A DNA stretch of 54,861 nucleotides from Acidobacteriota bacterium. Lineage in GTDB: Bacteria; Acidobacteriota; UBA6911; RPQK01; JAJDTT01. This document shows, in pieces, positions 9,329 to 48,042 of this stretch (the stretch's first letter is position 1; the number at the start of each line of letters is the position of its first letter). The stretch lies in assembly GCA_028874215.1 (NCBI GenBank), contig JAPPLF010000064.1, forward strand, positions 1 through 54,861, read 5' to 3'. The position numbers were made by a program, and so were the translations under genes. The notes under the pieces were generated by a model that had not been told where the DNA came from, did not search any database, and saw only the letters and a list, made by a program, of their open reading frames with translations.

Positions 9329-9337
9329 ACGGACCGG

Positions 9338-9440
9338 AGCGGCGGTTTCCTAACCGCCGAACTGGAGCGGCGGTTTCCAACCGCCGAACTCCTATGTGAC
9401 AAATTTGGCGAAGAAGACTGGGCGATTGGAAATCGTTCCT
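9338..9440. repeat. intergenic hairpin repeat, forward copy with two hairpins and conserved tail
   Basis: Two near-identical units of about 27-28 bases each fold into a perfect 8-bp hairpin: CGGCGGTT (9340-9347)/AACCGCCG (9352-9359), and CGGCGGTT (9368-9375)/AACCGCCG (9379-9386). They are followed by a tail (9395-9440) with its own CGATT/AATCG stem. The tail recurs near 51190-51230 in the same orientation and near 44115-44162 inverted. The repeat ends just before the ribosome site of the SDR gene. Confidence 0.85.
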
Positions 9441-40755: not shown

Positions 40756-41790
40756 TCAGTCCATTGTGTTCGGCGGTTCGTAGCCCCATTCACGCACGGC
40801 GAACCGCCACTCCCGGTCCACCTTGTCAATCAGGGGCCGATCGAACAGGTAACGGTTCTTGCGGTAGCCGGATAATGTCCCGAGGTATTTTTCGACAGGC
40901 TCTCGCGCCTGGTCCCAACCCGGCAAACTCAACGCCGCATAGATGCGTTTCAGGACGCCCATCGCATCCGCCTCGATGTCCTCGAAGTGCACTTCGATCA
41001 GGTTCCCCTTCGGGATCGACGCCCGGTCGTGCATGTACCGGCGGGTCATTTCAACGTAGTTGGAAAACACCGAGGTTTCGATATCGTCCCAGTCCACATC
41101 CTGAAGCCGGTACATGGGAATCAGAGTACGGAAGAGCTTCATCGTGGAAAGGAACACGACATACGGATTGCGCACGACGAAGATGAATTTCGCGTCGGGA
41201 AACAGTCGAAGCAGCAAGGCGGTCCGGCCCAGGTTGGCTGGCGACTTGAGCACCAGCCGGCGTCCCTCCGAAGCCAGCGTGGCCTTGCGCAGCACGTGCA
41301 GATAGCTGTCCCGCCACTCCCTCATCTCGGCCCCGGTCAGCCGCATGGCCCCCATCTTCGCCACGATTTCCCTTGCCCGCCCCGGAAACGAGAGCTGGTG
41401 CACGGACGAAAGCCGGGACACGGCGGCAACGGCCAGTTCCTCTTCCTGGGGGAGGTCCAGGGACACCGCAACATTGTCCATCGGGCGTTTCGACGGGAGC
41501 CGTCCGGCCAAGAGCCGCTCCAGCCACCCGCGCGAGATCAGGAAGAAGGGGGCCGCGACTGCATGAAAGGTCGACACGTACCCCAGATCGGGATCATGCG
41601 CCACCAGGAGGCCGTAGCGAAGCCTCTCAAGGAGCCGCAACGGTGCCGTGAGGGTACTCGTCGCTAATATGCCCGCAAACTTTCCCCAGTACCGCCGCTC
41701 TACACCGCCGTATTCGCGTATGAGGCTCCACCACAGGGACAGCGGCGAGGTTGCGAACAGATGCGGTTGAGATTCGCTGGAGTTGGCCAT
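40756..41790 (-). CDS. PAPS-dependent sulfotransferase
   Basis: 344 residues. The 5'-phosphosulfate-binding loop is 'RLVLKSPANLGR' (about 191-202) and the 3'-phosphate region is 'FIFVVRNPYVVFLSTMKLF' (about 213-231). Both match the bacterial Sulfotransfer family, which moves sulfate from PAPS to a hydroxyl. A Pro-rich hydrophobic N-terminal segment around 'AVAAPFFLI' could lie on a membrane. A GAGGAA ribosome site precedes the ATG. The start is 34 bases after the stop of the GPP34-P450 gene on the same strand, so the two form an operon and may act in sequence: hydroxylation, then sulfonation (inference). Confidence 0.88.
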   Translation of the reverse strand: MANSSESQPHLFATSPLSLWWSLIREYGGVERRYWGKFAGILATSTLTAPLRLLERLRYGLLVAHDPDLGYVSTFHAVAAPFFLISRGWLERLLAGRLPSKRPMDNVAVSLDLPQEEELAVAAVSRLSSVHQLSFPGRAREIVAKMGAMRLTGAEMREWRDSYLHVLRKATLASEGRRLVLKSPANLGRTALLLRLFPDAKFIFVVRNPYVVFLSTMKLFRTLIPMYRLQDVDWDDIETSVFSNYVEMTRRYMHDRASIPKGNLIEVHFEDIEADAMGVLKRIYAALSLPGWDQAREPVEKYLGTLSGYRKNRYLFDRPLIDKVDREWRFAVREWGYEPPNTMD

Positions 41791-41824: not shown

Positions 41825-43867
41825 TCAGTGGCGGCGGGTAATGACGATCTTGAAGCTGGATTTCGGAGACGCCACCGTAGAATAGCTCAGCTTCAGTCGA
41901 TAGCTGGGCGGATGCATGGTGATTTCGGCCCCGTGCAGCATGGCCGCGAGCGTCAGCACAAGGCTGACCTCCGCGAAGCCGCTGCCCAGGCAGCGGTGCG
42001 TGCCCAAGCCGAAAGGTGCGTACACTCCCGGCACCCTGTGTTCGGCGCGTTCCCGCGCGTAGCGGTCGATGTCGAACCGTTCCGGGTCGGGGAAGTATTC
42101 CGGCAGGACATGCGGCACGGTGGTGGCGAACATGACCGTCGTGCCAGCCGGGATCAGAAACCCGGCAAACTCGAAGGTGTTGACCACCGTTCGCACCAGC
42201 ACCGGTGCGACTCGATATAGCCGCAGGGTCTCCATCACCACGCGGTGGGTGACATCCATCGCGTGAAGCTTCCCGGCCGTGGGACCGCCGCCGGCGAACA
42301 GCTCGTCCACCTCGGGGAGCATCCGCGCCAGCGTCTCGGGGTGCTTGAGCAGCGCGTACAGCATGCATGTGGCGACGCTGGCTGCGGTGTGCAGGCCGGC
42401 GATGAAAGGTCCGATACAGGCGGACACCAGTTCCGTTTCGGGCAGGAACTGCGGGTCGGCCCGGTGCAGCGCCAAGACATCGTCGATCAGATTCGCCTTC
42501 CCCCGGGGCCGGTCGGCTTCGTGCAATCTCACGAGGTGCTCGCACAGTGCATCCATCCGGGCGCGCAAGCGCCGCATGCGCGGTGTTCGCATCGTGAACC
42601 CCGGACGGCGCTTCGTCGTGACCGCGATCATCCGGTCCACGTATGCAAGGAGGTCCCTTTGATACTCGTCTGTCTGGACACCGGTACAGAGCACTCCGAT
42701 TTGCTTGGCGATGGTGCGTTGCAACACCGGCAAGGCCGGCACCGGCACGCGCTCGGGCAGGTCGCCGATCTCCCGGGCCACGATCTCGATTGCGTCATCG
42801 ATGCGGTCGAGGAAATACCTTCGCGAATAGCCGTGCCCCAGAGCCTTGCGGAGGCGGAAATGTTCGGCGCCGTCCATCCCGAGGACGAACCGGTGAGCGC
42901 CCAGGGCCCGCGTCATACCGGAGTAGAATTCAACATTGCGAAGGTGCAGCCTGCCGTGGCGCTGGAGGAACATGTTGGCTTCCGCACCTGCGAGGACCGT
43001 GAACGAGTGCGAAAACGCGCGGAGGCGGAAGACCGGTCCGATTTCGCGGTATTGCCGGGCGAGGTAGGGTACCGGATCTCCCATCATGCCGAACGCGTTG
43101 CCCACGATGGGGAGTCCACCCCCGTCGGCGCGGGGTATGGCGGCCAGCGCCCGAGTCCGAGCCGCCGGGGAACTCAGGGCCGGCCTCCGCCGCCTGACGG
43201 ACTCGACGCCGGGAACGCCCGCCTTGCGGATCGCTGCGAAGACCGTCCGGCCGATCAATTCCATCTTGCAGATGAGTTCGATCCGGTCCCGGACCTCGGC
43301 CATTTCTCCGGGTGAGAGCAACCGTCCGAAGATTCCGCAAGCATTCACGAGCGCGATCAACATGACATCCCGGGGAGCCGGAACCTCCTCCGAGAAGAGA
43401 CCGGTCATGAGCCGCAGTTCGACTTCACGTCCGGCGTCGCCGTCCACCTGTGGATACCGGCGCGACCGGACGACCCTGCGCGTCACCGCAAGCAGTCCGC
43501 CCGTCTCTCGCTCTACGATGCCCCGCTCGACGAGACGGTCGAAAGCCCTCCTCTGCACCTGGTCCGCATGCGCCGGTTCGGCCATGCGGTCGATCCAGTA
43601 GGCCGGGTCCCGGGTCTCGGCGGCCGAAGCGATCGACCTTAGGCAGGGATCGAGCAGGCCGTCGCCAACGGGGGTGGAATCGACCAGGAAGAGGCGCTCA
43701 AGATCGGTATCGATGCGATTCTCCAGCGCCAAGTCCATCAGCACGGACCCGGCGAGGGCGCACCGCAGGGATCGATCCGGAATCGGGGCGAGCGCGCCGG
43801 TGTCCTTGTCGAGCAGAAGGAGAATCAGTTCTTCGGCGAATCTAAGCATAGGACGCGACCCGGACAC
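41825..43867 (-). CDS. GPP34 (Golgi phosphoprotein 3-like) domain fused to cytochrome P450
   Basis: 680 residues from a GTG at 43867 preceded by AAGGAG; the frame upstream is intergenic repeat and is not coding. The N-terminal ~220 residues match GPP34: 'MLRFAEELILLLLDKDTG', 'CALAGSVLMDLALENRID' and 'LVDSTPVGDGLLDP', with a helical, basic remainder. From about 250 a complete P450 follows: a Pro-rich entry ('GGGLPIVGN'), the I-helix 'AGLHTAAS', ExxR in 'METLRLYRVAP', 'PERFDIDRY', and the haem loop 'FGLGTHRCLGSG' with Cys626. It should be haem-bound and need a separate redox partner, none of which is visible. GPP34 binds phosphoinositides in eukaryotes; the bacterial role is unknown. Confidence 0.88.
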   Translation of the reverse strand: MSGSRPMLRFAEELILLLLDKDTGALAPIPDRSLRCALAGSVLMDLALENRIDTDLERLFLVDSTPVGDGLLDPCLRSIASAAETRDPAYWIDRMAEPAHADQVQRRAFDRLVERGIVERETGGLLAVTRRVVRSRRYPQVDGDAGREVELRLMTGLFSEEVPAPRDVMLIALVNACGIFGRLLSPGEMAEVRDRIELICKMELIGRTVFAAIRKAGVPGVESVRRRRPALSSPAARTRALAAIPRADGGGLPIVGNAFGMMGDPVPYLARQYREIGPVFRLRAFSHSFTVLAGAEANMFLQRHGRLHLRNVEFYSGMTRALGAHRFVLGMDGAEHFRLRKALGHGYSRRYFLDRIDDAIEIVAREIGDLPERVPVPALPVLQRTIAKQIGVLCTGVQTDEYQRDLLAYVDRMIAVTTKRRPGFTMRTPRMRRLRARMDALCEHLVRLHEADRPRGKANLIDDVLALHRADPQFLPETELVSACIGPFIAGLHTAASVATCMLYALLKHPETLARMLPEVDELFAGGGPTAGKLHAMDVTHRVVMETLRLYRVAPVLVRTVVNTFEFAGFLIPAGTTVMFATTVPHVLPEYFPDPERFDIDRYARERAEHRVPGVYAPFGLGTHRCLGSGFAEVSLVLTLAAMLHGAEITMHPPSYRLKLSYSTVASPKSSFKIVITRRH

Positions 43868-44075: not shown

Positions 44076-44310
44076 GGCATCCGCCGGATCGGGCCGGTGA
44101 GGAAGCTTCTGAGAAAAAGGAACGATTTCCAATCACCCAGTCTTCGTCGCCAATAATGTCACACGGGAGTTCGGCGATTGGAAATCGCCGCTCCAGTTCG
44201 GCGATTGGAAATCGCCGCTCCAGTTCGGCGGTTAGGAAACCGCCGCTCCCATCCTTTTTCTGTCGGCATTTCGCCGGGCATGGGCCGGTGGGGAAGCTCC
44301 TGTCTTGCCG
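44076..44310. repeat. intergenic hairpin repeat, inverted copy with three hairpins and flanking blocks
   Basis: An inverted tail lies near 44115-44162. Three perfect 8-bp hairpins follow: CGGCGATT (44172-44179)/AATCGCCG (44183-44190), the same again at 44199-44206/44210-44217, and CGGCGGTT (44226-44233)/AACCGCCG (44238-44245). The first two have A-T where the others have G-C, changed in both arms. A third block (CTTTTTCT... to GGGGAAGCTCCT, 44253-44310) recurs at 51085-51130 inverted, with partial copies near 43880-43930 and 44080-44120. The cluster fills the gap between the divergent P450 and gamma-glutamyltransferase-like genes. Confidence 0.85.
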
Positions 44311-46044: not shown

Positions 46045-46197
46045 GGAGGGGGGCCATTCCTGTCCCCCCTTCGGAGGGGCGACATCCTTGTCGCCCATTC
46101 CTGTCTCCCAATCTTTCCTGCGCTAACTTTTTCATTGCATACGGTGACAGGGCGGTTGGAAACCGCCCCTCCGGTTCGGCGGTCAGAGACCGCCGCT
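46045..46197. repeat. cluster of four intergenic hairpins
   Basis: AGGGGGG (46047-46053)/CCCCCCT (46064-46070); GGGCGACA (46077-46084)/TGTCGCCC (46089-46096) with loop TCCT; GGGCGGTT (46150-46157)/AACCGCCC (46161-46168); CGGCGGTC (46177-46184)/GACCGCCG (46188-46195). All but the first are perfect 8-bp stems, and the loops (TCCT, GGA, AGA) match those of the repeat family. The last overlaps the 3' end of the convergent gene and supplies its final codons (SGGL). Confidence 0.85.
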
Positions 46198-48042
46198 CCG
46201 GTCCCACGGAAACGCGAACGTCGGTGGGTTCACGTAGCGCTTCATCTGAATCGAGAGACGTGAACCGGCGCCGGCGTCCAGGCGGACGGTGAACCTGGAG
46301 TCCCCCACCTCGATCCGGCGGCCATCGACCGTAACCGCCACGGCGTCGTGCTCGGCGTAGGCGCCGGTCTGAACTACGAGCTCGCGGCTCTCCACCGGGT
46401 TGGTATTGACCAGGACGAGGGTGACGCCGGCGGGACCGATCTTTTCGACCAGCGCACCCACCCCCCGGGGCAGGCCCGGCCGCCGCTCCCCGGCGTCGAA
46501 ATAGCGAAGCTGCGCGTGCACCACGTTGCCGCCGCTGCCCGGATCGTTGGCCCCGAGCATGAGGTTGTGGAGGCTGCTGACGGAGGTGACCACCGGCATG
46601 TCGGGAGCCTGCCGGGTGTCCGTCGTCCGGGTATCCTCCCGCACCTTTTGGACCTGCCTCCGGATCACGTCCAGATCATGCGCCATCGCCTCCATGGGAA
46701 AGTCCGGGTCATCACCCCGCAGGTACCGGACCCAGGGCTCTTCCGCGACCCGGGGCAGGTCGGACTCCTCCAGGGTCCAGGTGTAGATGTCGGTCAACTC
46801 CGGGAGCGACCAGAAATTGACGTTCCCGCCGCGGCGGTTGCTGTTGTCGATGTAGGCGTACCAACCGTCGTCGCCGTACTTGTGCGGGACCATGAGGCGT
46901 CCGTCGATGACCTTCTGCGCCGCGTACATGTTCTCGATCTGCGCTCGCAACGTGTCCACGTACTTGCGGTCGCCCGTGAGCATGAACGCGATGCCGAAAC
47001 CGACCCGGGCGCCCCGCATCACGTAGTTGTTGCCCGGATTGTCCGATCCGTCGGCCGACTTGGGACGGAAGTTCCATCCGTAGACTCCGCCCCACCACTT
47101 GCCGTCCCACTCGCCTCCGATGGACCCGTCGAGGCCGATGTTGCTGGGAAGGTTGCCGCCGTTGCGGGCGGCCCGATCGACCCAGGCGTCGACGTACTCC
47201 AGAATCCAGTCCCGGTACTTCTCCTCCCCGGTCAACATGTACGCGGTCATGGCCAGGTTCGTGGCCAGCATGTTCTGGGGGTGGTCGCCGCTCAGGTTGA
47301 CCGTGTATCCCATCCGGGTCCAGCGCTCCGTTCTCGGGGGTTGCCCCGGCCGGGGGTCGTGACGGGGCCGCGGGTTCCCACCCCAGTGATACTCCGTGGC
47401 CGGCGTCAACAGCGGACCCCGGCTTCCGTTGAACAGGCTGCGGATGATCTTTTTCTCCGGGTCGTAGTTGGGAGCCTCGGGGTCCTCGTCCATGTAGAAG
47501 CCGGCATAGCGCCGGGCCCGGATCAGGTATTGCGGGTCCTGAGGGCGGGCGAGACCGTACCAGTACCAGGGAGCCATCCCTTCGCCCGTGTGCTCCCAGT
47601 CGAGTTGCGGACAGAACTCCCGGTAGAACATGCCGTCCTTGGCCGCCGCCACCAGGGGTTCCCGGGCTTCCGTGAACTGGTCGAGGTGTCCTTCCCAGAT
47701 CTTCTTGTGCAAGGCCAGGATCTCGGGCGGCCCCCCCAGCATGTAGAGGATGGGCAGATCGCGATAGGTTTCGGTGACGTCGTCGGGGCCGTCCATGGCC
47801 CCCCAGTTGGGGGTGATCCGCATCCAACCGCGGACGTCGACGTACTTGTCGGCCGCCACGGACGCCGCCTCGGCGTTGGAATCGATGAGCGCCCACTGGG
47901 CCATGGCCCAGGCCGGCGGAGGCATCGGCGTGGTGATCTCGATGTCGGGTTTCGCCAGGGTCAACGATCCGGTCAAGAGACCGAGAGCGACGAAGATAAC
48001 GGTGAGCCGGAATTTCTTCCGGTTTGGATTAGTTGCGGCCAT
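46183..48042 (-). CDS. secreted protein of unknown family, alpha/alpha-toroid-like
   Basis: 619 residues. The signal peptide is about 1-30 (LTVIFVALGLLTGSLTLA). Many aromatic Trp/Tyr/Gly blocks follow ('DWEHTGEGMAPWYWYGLAR', 'YAGFYMDEDPEA', 'EYHWGGNPRPRHD', 'GYTVNLSGDHPQN'), with repeated helix pairs ('AMTAYMLTGEEKYRDWILEY', 'GIAFMLTGDRKYVDTLRAQ') of the kind seen in (alpha/alpha)6-barrel glycosidases and polysaccharide lyases. A C-terminal beta domain begins about 500. No specific family is recognised. GGGGAGGAAAGAA precedes the ATG. It is divergent from propeller 3 with 84 bases between starts. Confidence 0.65.
   Translation of the reverse strand: MAATNPNRKKFRLTVIFVALGLLTGSLTLAKPDIEITTPMPPPAWAMAQWALIDSNAEAASVAADKYVDVRGWMRITPNWGAMDGPDDVTETYRDLPILYMLGGPPEILALHKKIWEGHLDQFTEAREPLVAAAKDGMFYREFCPQLDWEHTGEGMAPWYWYGLARPQDPQYLIRARRYAGFYMDEDPEAPNYDPEKKIIRSLFNGSRGPLLTPATEYHWGGNPRPRHDPRPGQPPRTERWTRMGYTVNLSGDHPQNMLATNLAMTAYMLTGEEKYRDWILEYVDAWVDRAARNGGNLPSNIGLDGSIGGEWDGKWWGGVYGWNFRPKSADGSDNPGNNYVMRGARVGFGIAFMLTGDRKYVDTLRAQIENMYAAQKVIDGRLMVPHKYGDDGWYAYIDNSNRRGGNVNFWSLPELTDIYTWTLEESDLPRVAEEPWVRYLRGDDPDFPMEAMAHDLDVIRRQVQKVREDTRTTDTRQAPDMPVVTSVSSLHNLMLGANDPGSGGNVVHAQLRYFDAGERRPGLPRGVGALVEKIGPAGVTLVLVNTNPVESRELVVQTGAYAEHDAVAVTVDGRRIEVGDSRFTVRLDAGAGSRLSIQMKRYVNPPTFAFPWDRSGGL

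Follow-up and report, generated by a model that had tools for sequence, protein, structure and literature searches.

A gene encoding a GPP34 (GOLPH3/Vps74-like) domain followed by a cytochrome P450 lies on the minus strand of the window, the whole 54,861-nucleotide stretch analysed here (Table 1). The arrangement described in the original prediction holds: in Pfam searches, residues 11–214 match GPP34 (PF05719; 127.3 bits, curated cut-off 29.1) and residues 251–653 match p450 (PF00067; 173 bits, cut-off 22.8), both within one uninterrupted frame and each far above its cut-off. The ATG is the likely start, since a same-genus relative (G003; L019/L025) does not conserve the GTG at 43867. The hydrophobicity of the fusion suggests no clear transmembrane anchor, its peaks corresponding to core helices of the P450 and of GPP34.

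Table 1. Features of the fusion gene and its downstream neighbour in the window
Feature	Position	Strand	Remarks
Sulfotransferase CDS, probable operon partner	40756..41790	-	34 bp downstream of the fusion, same strand
GPP34–cytochrome P450 fusion CDS	41825..43849	-	674 aa, single open frame; ATG start at 43849, stop 41825-41827
GPP34 (GOLPH3/Vps74-like) domain	43226..43837	-	Pfam PF05719, E=1.1e-36; AlphaFold2 and Foldseek
Loop/hairpin ending TRRVVRSRRYP	43445..43516	-	Arg-rich, partly disordered in the model; sequence and DSSP, position inferred
Interdomain linker	43118..43225	-	Arg-rich, low pLDDT; AlphaFold2 model and sequence
Cytochrome P450 domain	41909..43117	-	Pfam PF00067, E=9.4e-51; phmmer and Foldseek top match CYP51
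I-helix motif AGLHT	42386..42400	-	His in place of the acid; sequence
ExxR motif ETLR	42221..42232	-	sequence
Haem-binding loop FGLGTHRCLG	41984..42013	-	contains Cys620; sequence

The sulfotransferase partner is conserved beside the fusion at loci L057, L059, L060, L064, L121, L122 and L010, the last in a 'Rhodothermales' MAG (G396) of a second phylum. The Sulfotransfer_3 match (Pfam) of the window protein begins at profile position 86, and that of its L010 homologue at position 1. The two proteins are otherwise 85% identical, in a match split into 1–64 and 89–371; the window protein lacks, in frame, the 24 residues 65–88 of the homologue. The PAPS 5'-phosphosulfate loop falls in this gap and is missing from the window protein, so that the gene is either dying or wrongly assembled there. 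With this loop-less sulfotransferase as the only neighbour of the window fusion, the pathway of the window copy may be decaying. The fusion itself looks intact. Intergenic DNA in the window also carries a REP-like family of ~27-bp palindromic repeats (AGTTCGGCGATTGGAAATCGCCGCTCC), at 44168-44249, 9336-9390, 46045-46100 and 46151-46202.

It is scarcely conceivable that the fusion is an artefact of assembly or annotation joining two genes. It recurs on three separate contigs of the window genome (including C25 and C92), in other genomes of the genus and also in a second phylum, and the trees of its two halves are largely congruent, which rules out such a join.

Folds and residues of the two domains

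An AlphaFold2 model of the isolated GPP34 domain reached pLDDT 86.5 and pTM 0.85, and all seven of its significant PDB matches in Foldseek were GOLPH3 or Vps74 (TMq 0.64–0.77; E 6e-8 to 9qpq and 8e-7 to 3kn1). Besides this fold, the GPP34 half shares with GOLPH3/Vps74 the Pfam family PF05719 and the absence of a transmembrane segment. However, GOLPH3 recruits enzymes in trans, whereas in the bacterial protein the catalytic domain is covalently fused.

In GOLPH3, PI4P is contacted by W81, R90, R171 and R174, a hydrophobic beta-hairpin inserts into the membrane and an acidic groove binds enzyme tails (PMC13408441). In the window GPP34 the four contacts are replaced by P, A, D and Q, respectively, by an alignment for which sequence alone gives weak support; the R90 position is Ala in all fusions examined. 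PI4P-type lipid binding therefore has no residue-level support. The domain had been proposed to bind a membrane lipid and present it to the P450; it might do so, although the PI4P version of this presentation is unlikely. A globally basic patch, for which the model was to be inspected, is unsupported: the domain is net acidic in seven of seven fusions examined, with −5 for the window protein and −22 at the lowest. The only basic parts are the disordered Arg-rich loop at the GOLPH3-hairpin position and the Arg-rich linker. A position corresponding to the GOLPH3 membrane hairpin exists in the window protein; it is rich in Arg and, in the model, disordered in part.

We know of no settled function for bacterial GPP34 domains. 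Free-standing bacterial members (e.g. from a Pseudonocardia plasmid, L012, L013 and L039) belong to the same Pfam family as the fusions, but consist of a single domain. Several of them (L012, L033, L036 and L037) carry an Ala-rich hydrophobic C-terminal tail, which is absent from the fusions with their P450. In several genomes (L049, L052, L013), a small STAS-like gene of the anti-anti-sigma type adjoins the free-standing GPP34 gene. A 541-aa frame in G231, considered as a second fusion type, was rejected, its GPP34 being an ordinary gene of ~200 aa with an out-of-gene extension.

In the P450 half, the ExxR pair (E540/R543) and the haem-binding Cys620 (numbered 626 in the original prediction) are present as described. 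The I-helix, described as intact, is so in part: Thr488 is kept, but the usual Asp/Glu is replaced by His487 (A484-G-L-H487-T488). A His-Thr pair in the I-helix is also found in CYP51. The whole-fusion AlphaFold2 model (18 homologues) gave pLDDT 77 and a pTM of 0.61, at which the position of one domain relative to the other is unreliable. Its top PDB matches (Foldseek) were to the P450 domain of the Methylococcus capsulatus CYP51-ferredoxin (7jj1, 7snm). This protein, likewise a P450 fusion, is the best match of the P450 half in both structure and sequence; however, its extra domain is a C-terminal ferredoxin, whereas here it is an N-terminal GPP34. Membership of CYP51 was rejected, since the identity in the structural alignment (Foldseek) is just 24–26%, against a family level of ~40%. 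In phmmer, the fusion P450 matched CYP51 at 6e-32, compared with 1e-107 for the true CYP51 that at least one carrier genome (G697) encodes separately. No redox partner gene was identified near the fusion.

The oxygen-activation pair of the I-helix differs between classes of the fusion: it is His-Thr in the window and Asp-Thr in the paralogue on C25, and neither occurs in the class encoded near a sterol C24-methyltransferase (SMT). There, the I-helix reads VASVYVG or VASIYLG, lacking an acid-alcohol pair, while ExxR and the haem Cys are retained (L058, L061, L093–L095, L198–L200). Such an I-helix is unusual for a monooxygenase. Its absence of an acid-Thr pair suggests that SMT-class P450s may perform unusual chemistry and may not be ordinary monooxygenases.

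Distribution and single origin of the fusion

The survey took in 396 genomes from the window's phylum (the first phylum) and 395 from that of G396 (the second), with carriers counted from open frames of at least 650 aa. The fusion is carried by 16/396 and 13/395 genomes, respectively. The same architecture was found in 44 genes across the two phyla, each of which BLAST aligned with the fusion along most of its length, and all 44 loci were read. A single genus accounts for some two thirds of the loci in the first phylum, so that the counts overstate independence. Family searches, on which genome-wide statements on the window genome rest, retrieved exactly three GPP34 genes from it, all three of them GPP34-P450 fusions.

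The fusions form one clade in the tree of each half (support 100/100 for GPP34 and 98/98 for P450), with largely congruent subclades. The fusion thus arose once and later diversified. The free-standing GPP34 proteins nearest to this clade are those of L013/L018/L024. Among free P450s, sampled from plasmids and the window's own genome only, the nearest is that of a steroid-type cluster on a Planktothrix plasmid, which contains an oxidosqualene cyclase (TIGR03463, 741 bits), a 3-ketosteroid-dehydrogenase-like (KSTD-like) flavoprotein and Rieske proteins. The stretch upstream of this P450, suspected of hiding a GPP34 gene, proved to be a truncated P450 copy. No plasmid or phage record spanned both halves, and a scan of viral contigs retrieved no relatives of the fusion.

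The L010 fusion, on a 2.9-Mb contig of another lineage, is 78% identical to the window fusion over 676 residues. As a pair, fusion and sulfotransferase are 78–85% identical between these two loci of different phyla, and a transposase gene lies just upstream in L010, which together suggest horizontal transfer. We found no description of a GPP34-P450 fusion in a literature search that excluded most subscription papers; 'Gpp34' there is mostly the name of an unrelated pesticidal protein.

Gene neighbourhoods and proposed role

At least one sterol/triterpenoid-type partner gene was encoded within 6 kb of 41 of the 44 fusions. The partners within this distance were SMT (13 fusions), KshA-type Rieske oxygenase (20), FAD oxidoreductase (19), RND pump (22), sulfotransferase (9), squalene-hopene cyclase (SHC; 5) and acyltransferase (4). 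Two kinds of these partners, RND pump and FAD oxidoreductase, are not sterol-specific. The window fusion belongs to the sulfotransferase class. At a locus of G160, the stop of an SHC gene (TIGR01507, 608 bits) and the start of the fusion share 4 bp, and a sulfotransferase gene follows 13 bp after the fusion; further SHC-fusion-sulfotransferase loci are present in G136, G229, G236 and G119. Broken SHC copies adjoin the fusion in G144 and G152, and two sulfotransferase genes lie downstream of it in L010.

In the acyltransferase class, the fusion is paired with an acyltransferase-3 gene, at the C25 paralogue of the window genome and at three second-phylum loci. In the SMT class, the C92 paralogue is encoded near OEP and MFP genes and 1 kb from the sole SMT gene of the window genome. 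The fusion of G222 is surrounded by SMT, RND, OEP, MFP, FAD oxidoreductase and KshA-type Rieske oxygenase genes. G236 encodes RND, SMT, fusion and FAD on one strand, the SMT reading frame lying 26 bp upstream of the fusion. At L090 (8629-10873), a second, different type of SMT (genus g78) is directly followed by another Rieske-like oxygenase gene.

The earlier guess that the substrate is a lipid gains support from these neighbourhoods and can be narrowed to polycyclic isoprenoids, namely sterols and triterpenoids, because paralogous and orthologous fusions sit among SMT, SHC, KshA-Rieske, acyltransferase and sulfotransferase genes. We consider it probable, with moderate confidence, that this single-origin family tailors sterol or triterpenoid lipids on the cytoplasmic side of the membrane, with GPP34 as an adaptor for membrane or partners. 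For membrane attachment, catalytic activity, exact substrate and the order of steps, we infer the following. The GOLPH3-like domain, itself without a transmembrane helix, would act as a peripheral adaptor that keeps the P450 attached to the inner membrane, contacting either lipid or partner enzymes. The access channel of the P450 would thereby come to lie against the bilayer that contains sterol or pentacyclic triterpene substrates, and the enzyme would oxidise their ring system or side chain. The co-encoded partner would next methylate (SMT), further oxidise (KshA-type Rieske), sulfate or acylate the product; in the SMT class, the nearby-encoded RND pump may export or traffic it.

Alternatively, the chemistry would still be that of sterols or triterpenoids, with GPP34 acting as a protein-protein scaffold that recruits a nearby-encoded membrane enzyme or pump (SHC, acyltransferase, RND) into a metabolon, as GOLPH3 holds glycosyltransferase tails. 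The acidity of the fusion GPP34 domains, set beside the tail-binding acidic groove of GOLPH3 (PMC13408441), the loss of the PI4P residues and the presence of membrane proteins among the partners (RND, acyltransferase-3) agree with such a scaffold. Nevertheless, no partner is common to all classes, the partner varying while GPP34 stays, and for the window class the abundance of Arg at the hairpin position points to direct contact with lipid; we regard a pure scaffold as rather unlikely.

More doubtful still is the idea that unrelated small molecules are the substrates of the P450, the isoprenoid neighbours being coincidental in the case of the window class, which is at most ~45% identical to the classes linked to a cyclase or SMT. 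The window locus itself is without an isoprenoid gene, and the window-like loci L162 and L178 are without a recognised neighbour. However, the window clade is nested inside the fusion clade, and the SHC-fusion-sulfotransferase operon of G160 holds a 49%-identical homologue of the L010 sulfotransferase, the intact orthologue of the window's.

Predicted sterol-making capacity of the carriers

SMT was detected in 14/396 genomes of the first phylum and 9/395 of the second, and all 23 SMT genomes carry the fusion. Counted by genome, the hypergeometric probabilities of this co-occurrence are 6e-24 (first phylum) and 1e-15 (second), both inflated by relatedness; counted by genus, that for the first phylum is 7e-7. 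Within g78, the genus of the main carriers, the two surveyed species without the fusion (G203 and G341) also lack SMT.

Judged by gene content, several of the carriers seem able to make sterols de novo. G697 encodes SdmA, SdmB, an ERG24-type reductase, its true CYP51, a squalene epoxidase-oxidosqualene cyclase fusion and SMT, and G788 also has de novo sterol loci. The window genome has SMT, and the family searches found no sterol or hopene cyclase in it; many other carriers likewise have no real cyclase, which suggests that the sterols they modify are imported too. Considering this combination, the substrate in the window genome is probably imported, from a host or the environment. Use of host sterols by SMT-bearing symbionts has been proposed earlier (PMC10070321).

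The lack of a cyclase in many carriers, the window genome included, would also fit a detoxification system, in which the P450 (with FAD or Rieske proteins) modifies toxic terpenoids or steroids of host or environment and the RND pump expels them, in defence and not biosynthesis. RND/MFP/OEP efflux genes are indeed adjacent to about half of the fusions. However, the biosynthetic SMT and dedicated SHC genes stand in operon-like order with fusions, and G697 and G788 hold de novo sterol loci, so that we find detoxification unlikely.

Taking sterol/triterpenoid tailoring as the preferred role, a broader and tentative reading is that bacterial GPP34 domains could be ancestral membrane-lipid or enzyme adaptors for sterol and hopanoid metabolism. 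The fusions would then be a new family of steroid/triterpenoid oxidases acting on imported or home-made sterols, in bacteria of which some are possibly host-associated, with SMT-class members of unusual chemistry. If so, the link of GOLPH3-type domains to sterol-rich membranes may predate their Golgi role. A conserved covalent fusion to an enzyme, beside sterol and triterpene genes, offers a specific, testable hypothesis for bacterial GPP34 and directs attention to a so far undescribed family of steroid/triterpenoid-tailoring P450s. It bears on bacterial sterol biosynthesis, on sulfated and acylated triterpenoid natural products and on the debate over which organisms make the side-chain-modified sterols used as biomarkers.

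The nearest described loci are the sterol clusters of sponge symbionts (Brown et al. 2023, PMC10070321), where bacterial SMTs are likewise clustered with other genes for sterols, among them OSC and homologues of SdmA/SdmB. However, the main text of that paper mentions neither P450 nor GPP34, whereas SMT is here coupled to GPP34-P450. Genes for a squalene epoxidase fused to an oxidosqualene cyclase (~1,140–1,160 aa) were also observed at L194 (4467-7961), L118 (8075-11563) and L192 (9148-12567), with both Pfam domain sets confirmed in L194 and L118. Those of L194 and L192 adjoin CYP51-like, Rieske, SDR and SMT genes, and appear to be de novo bacterial sterol loci.
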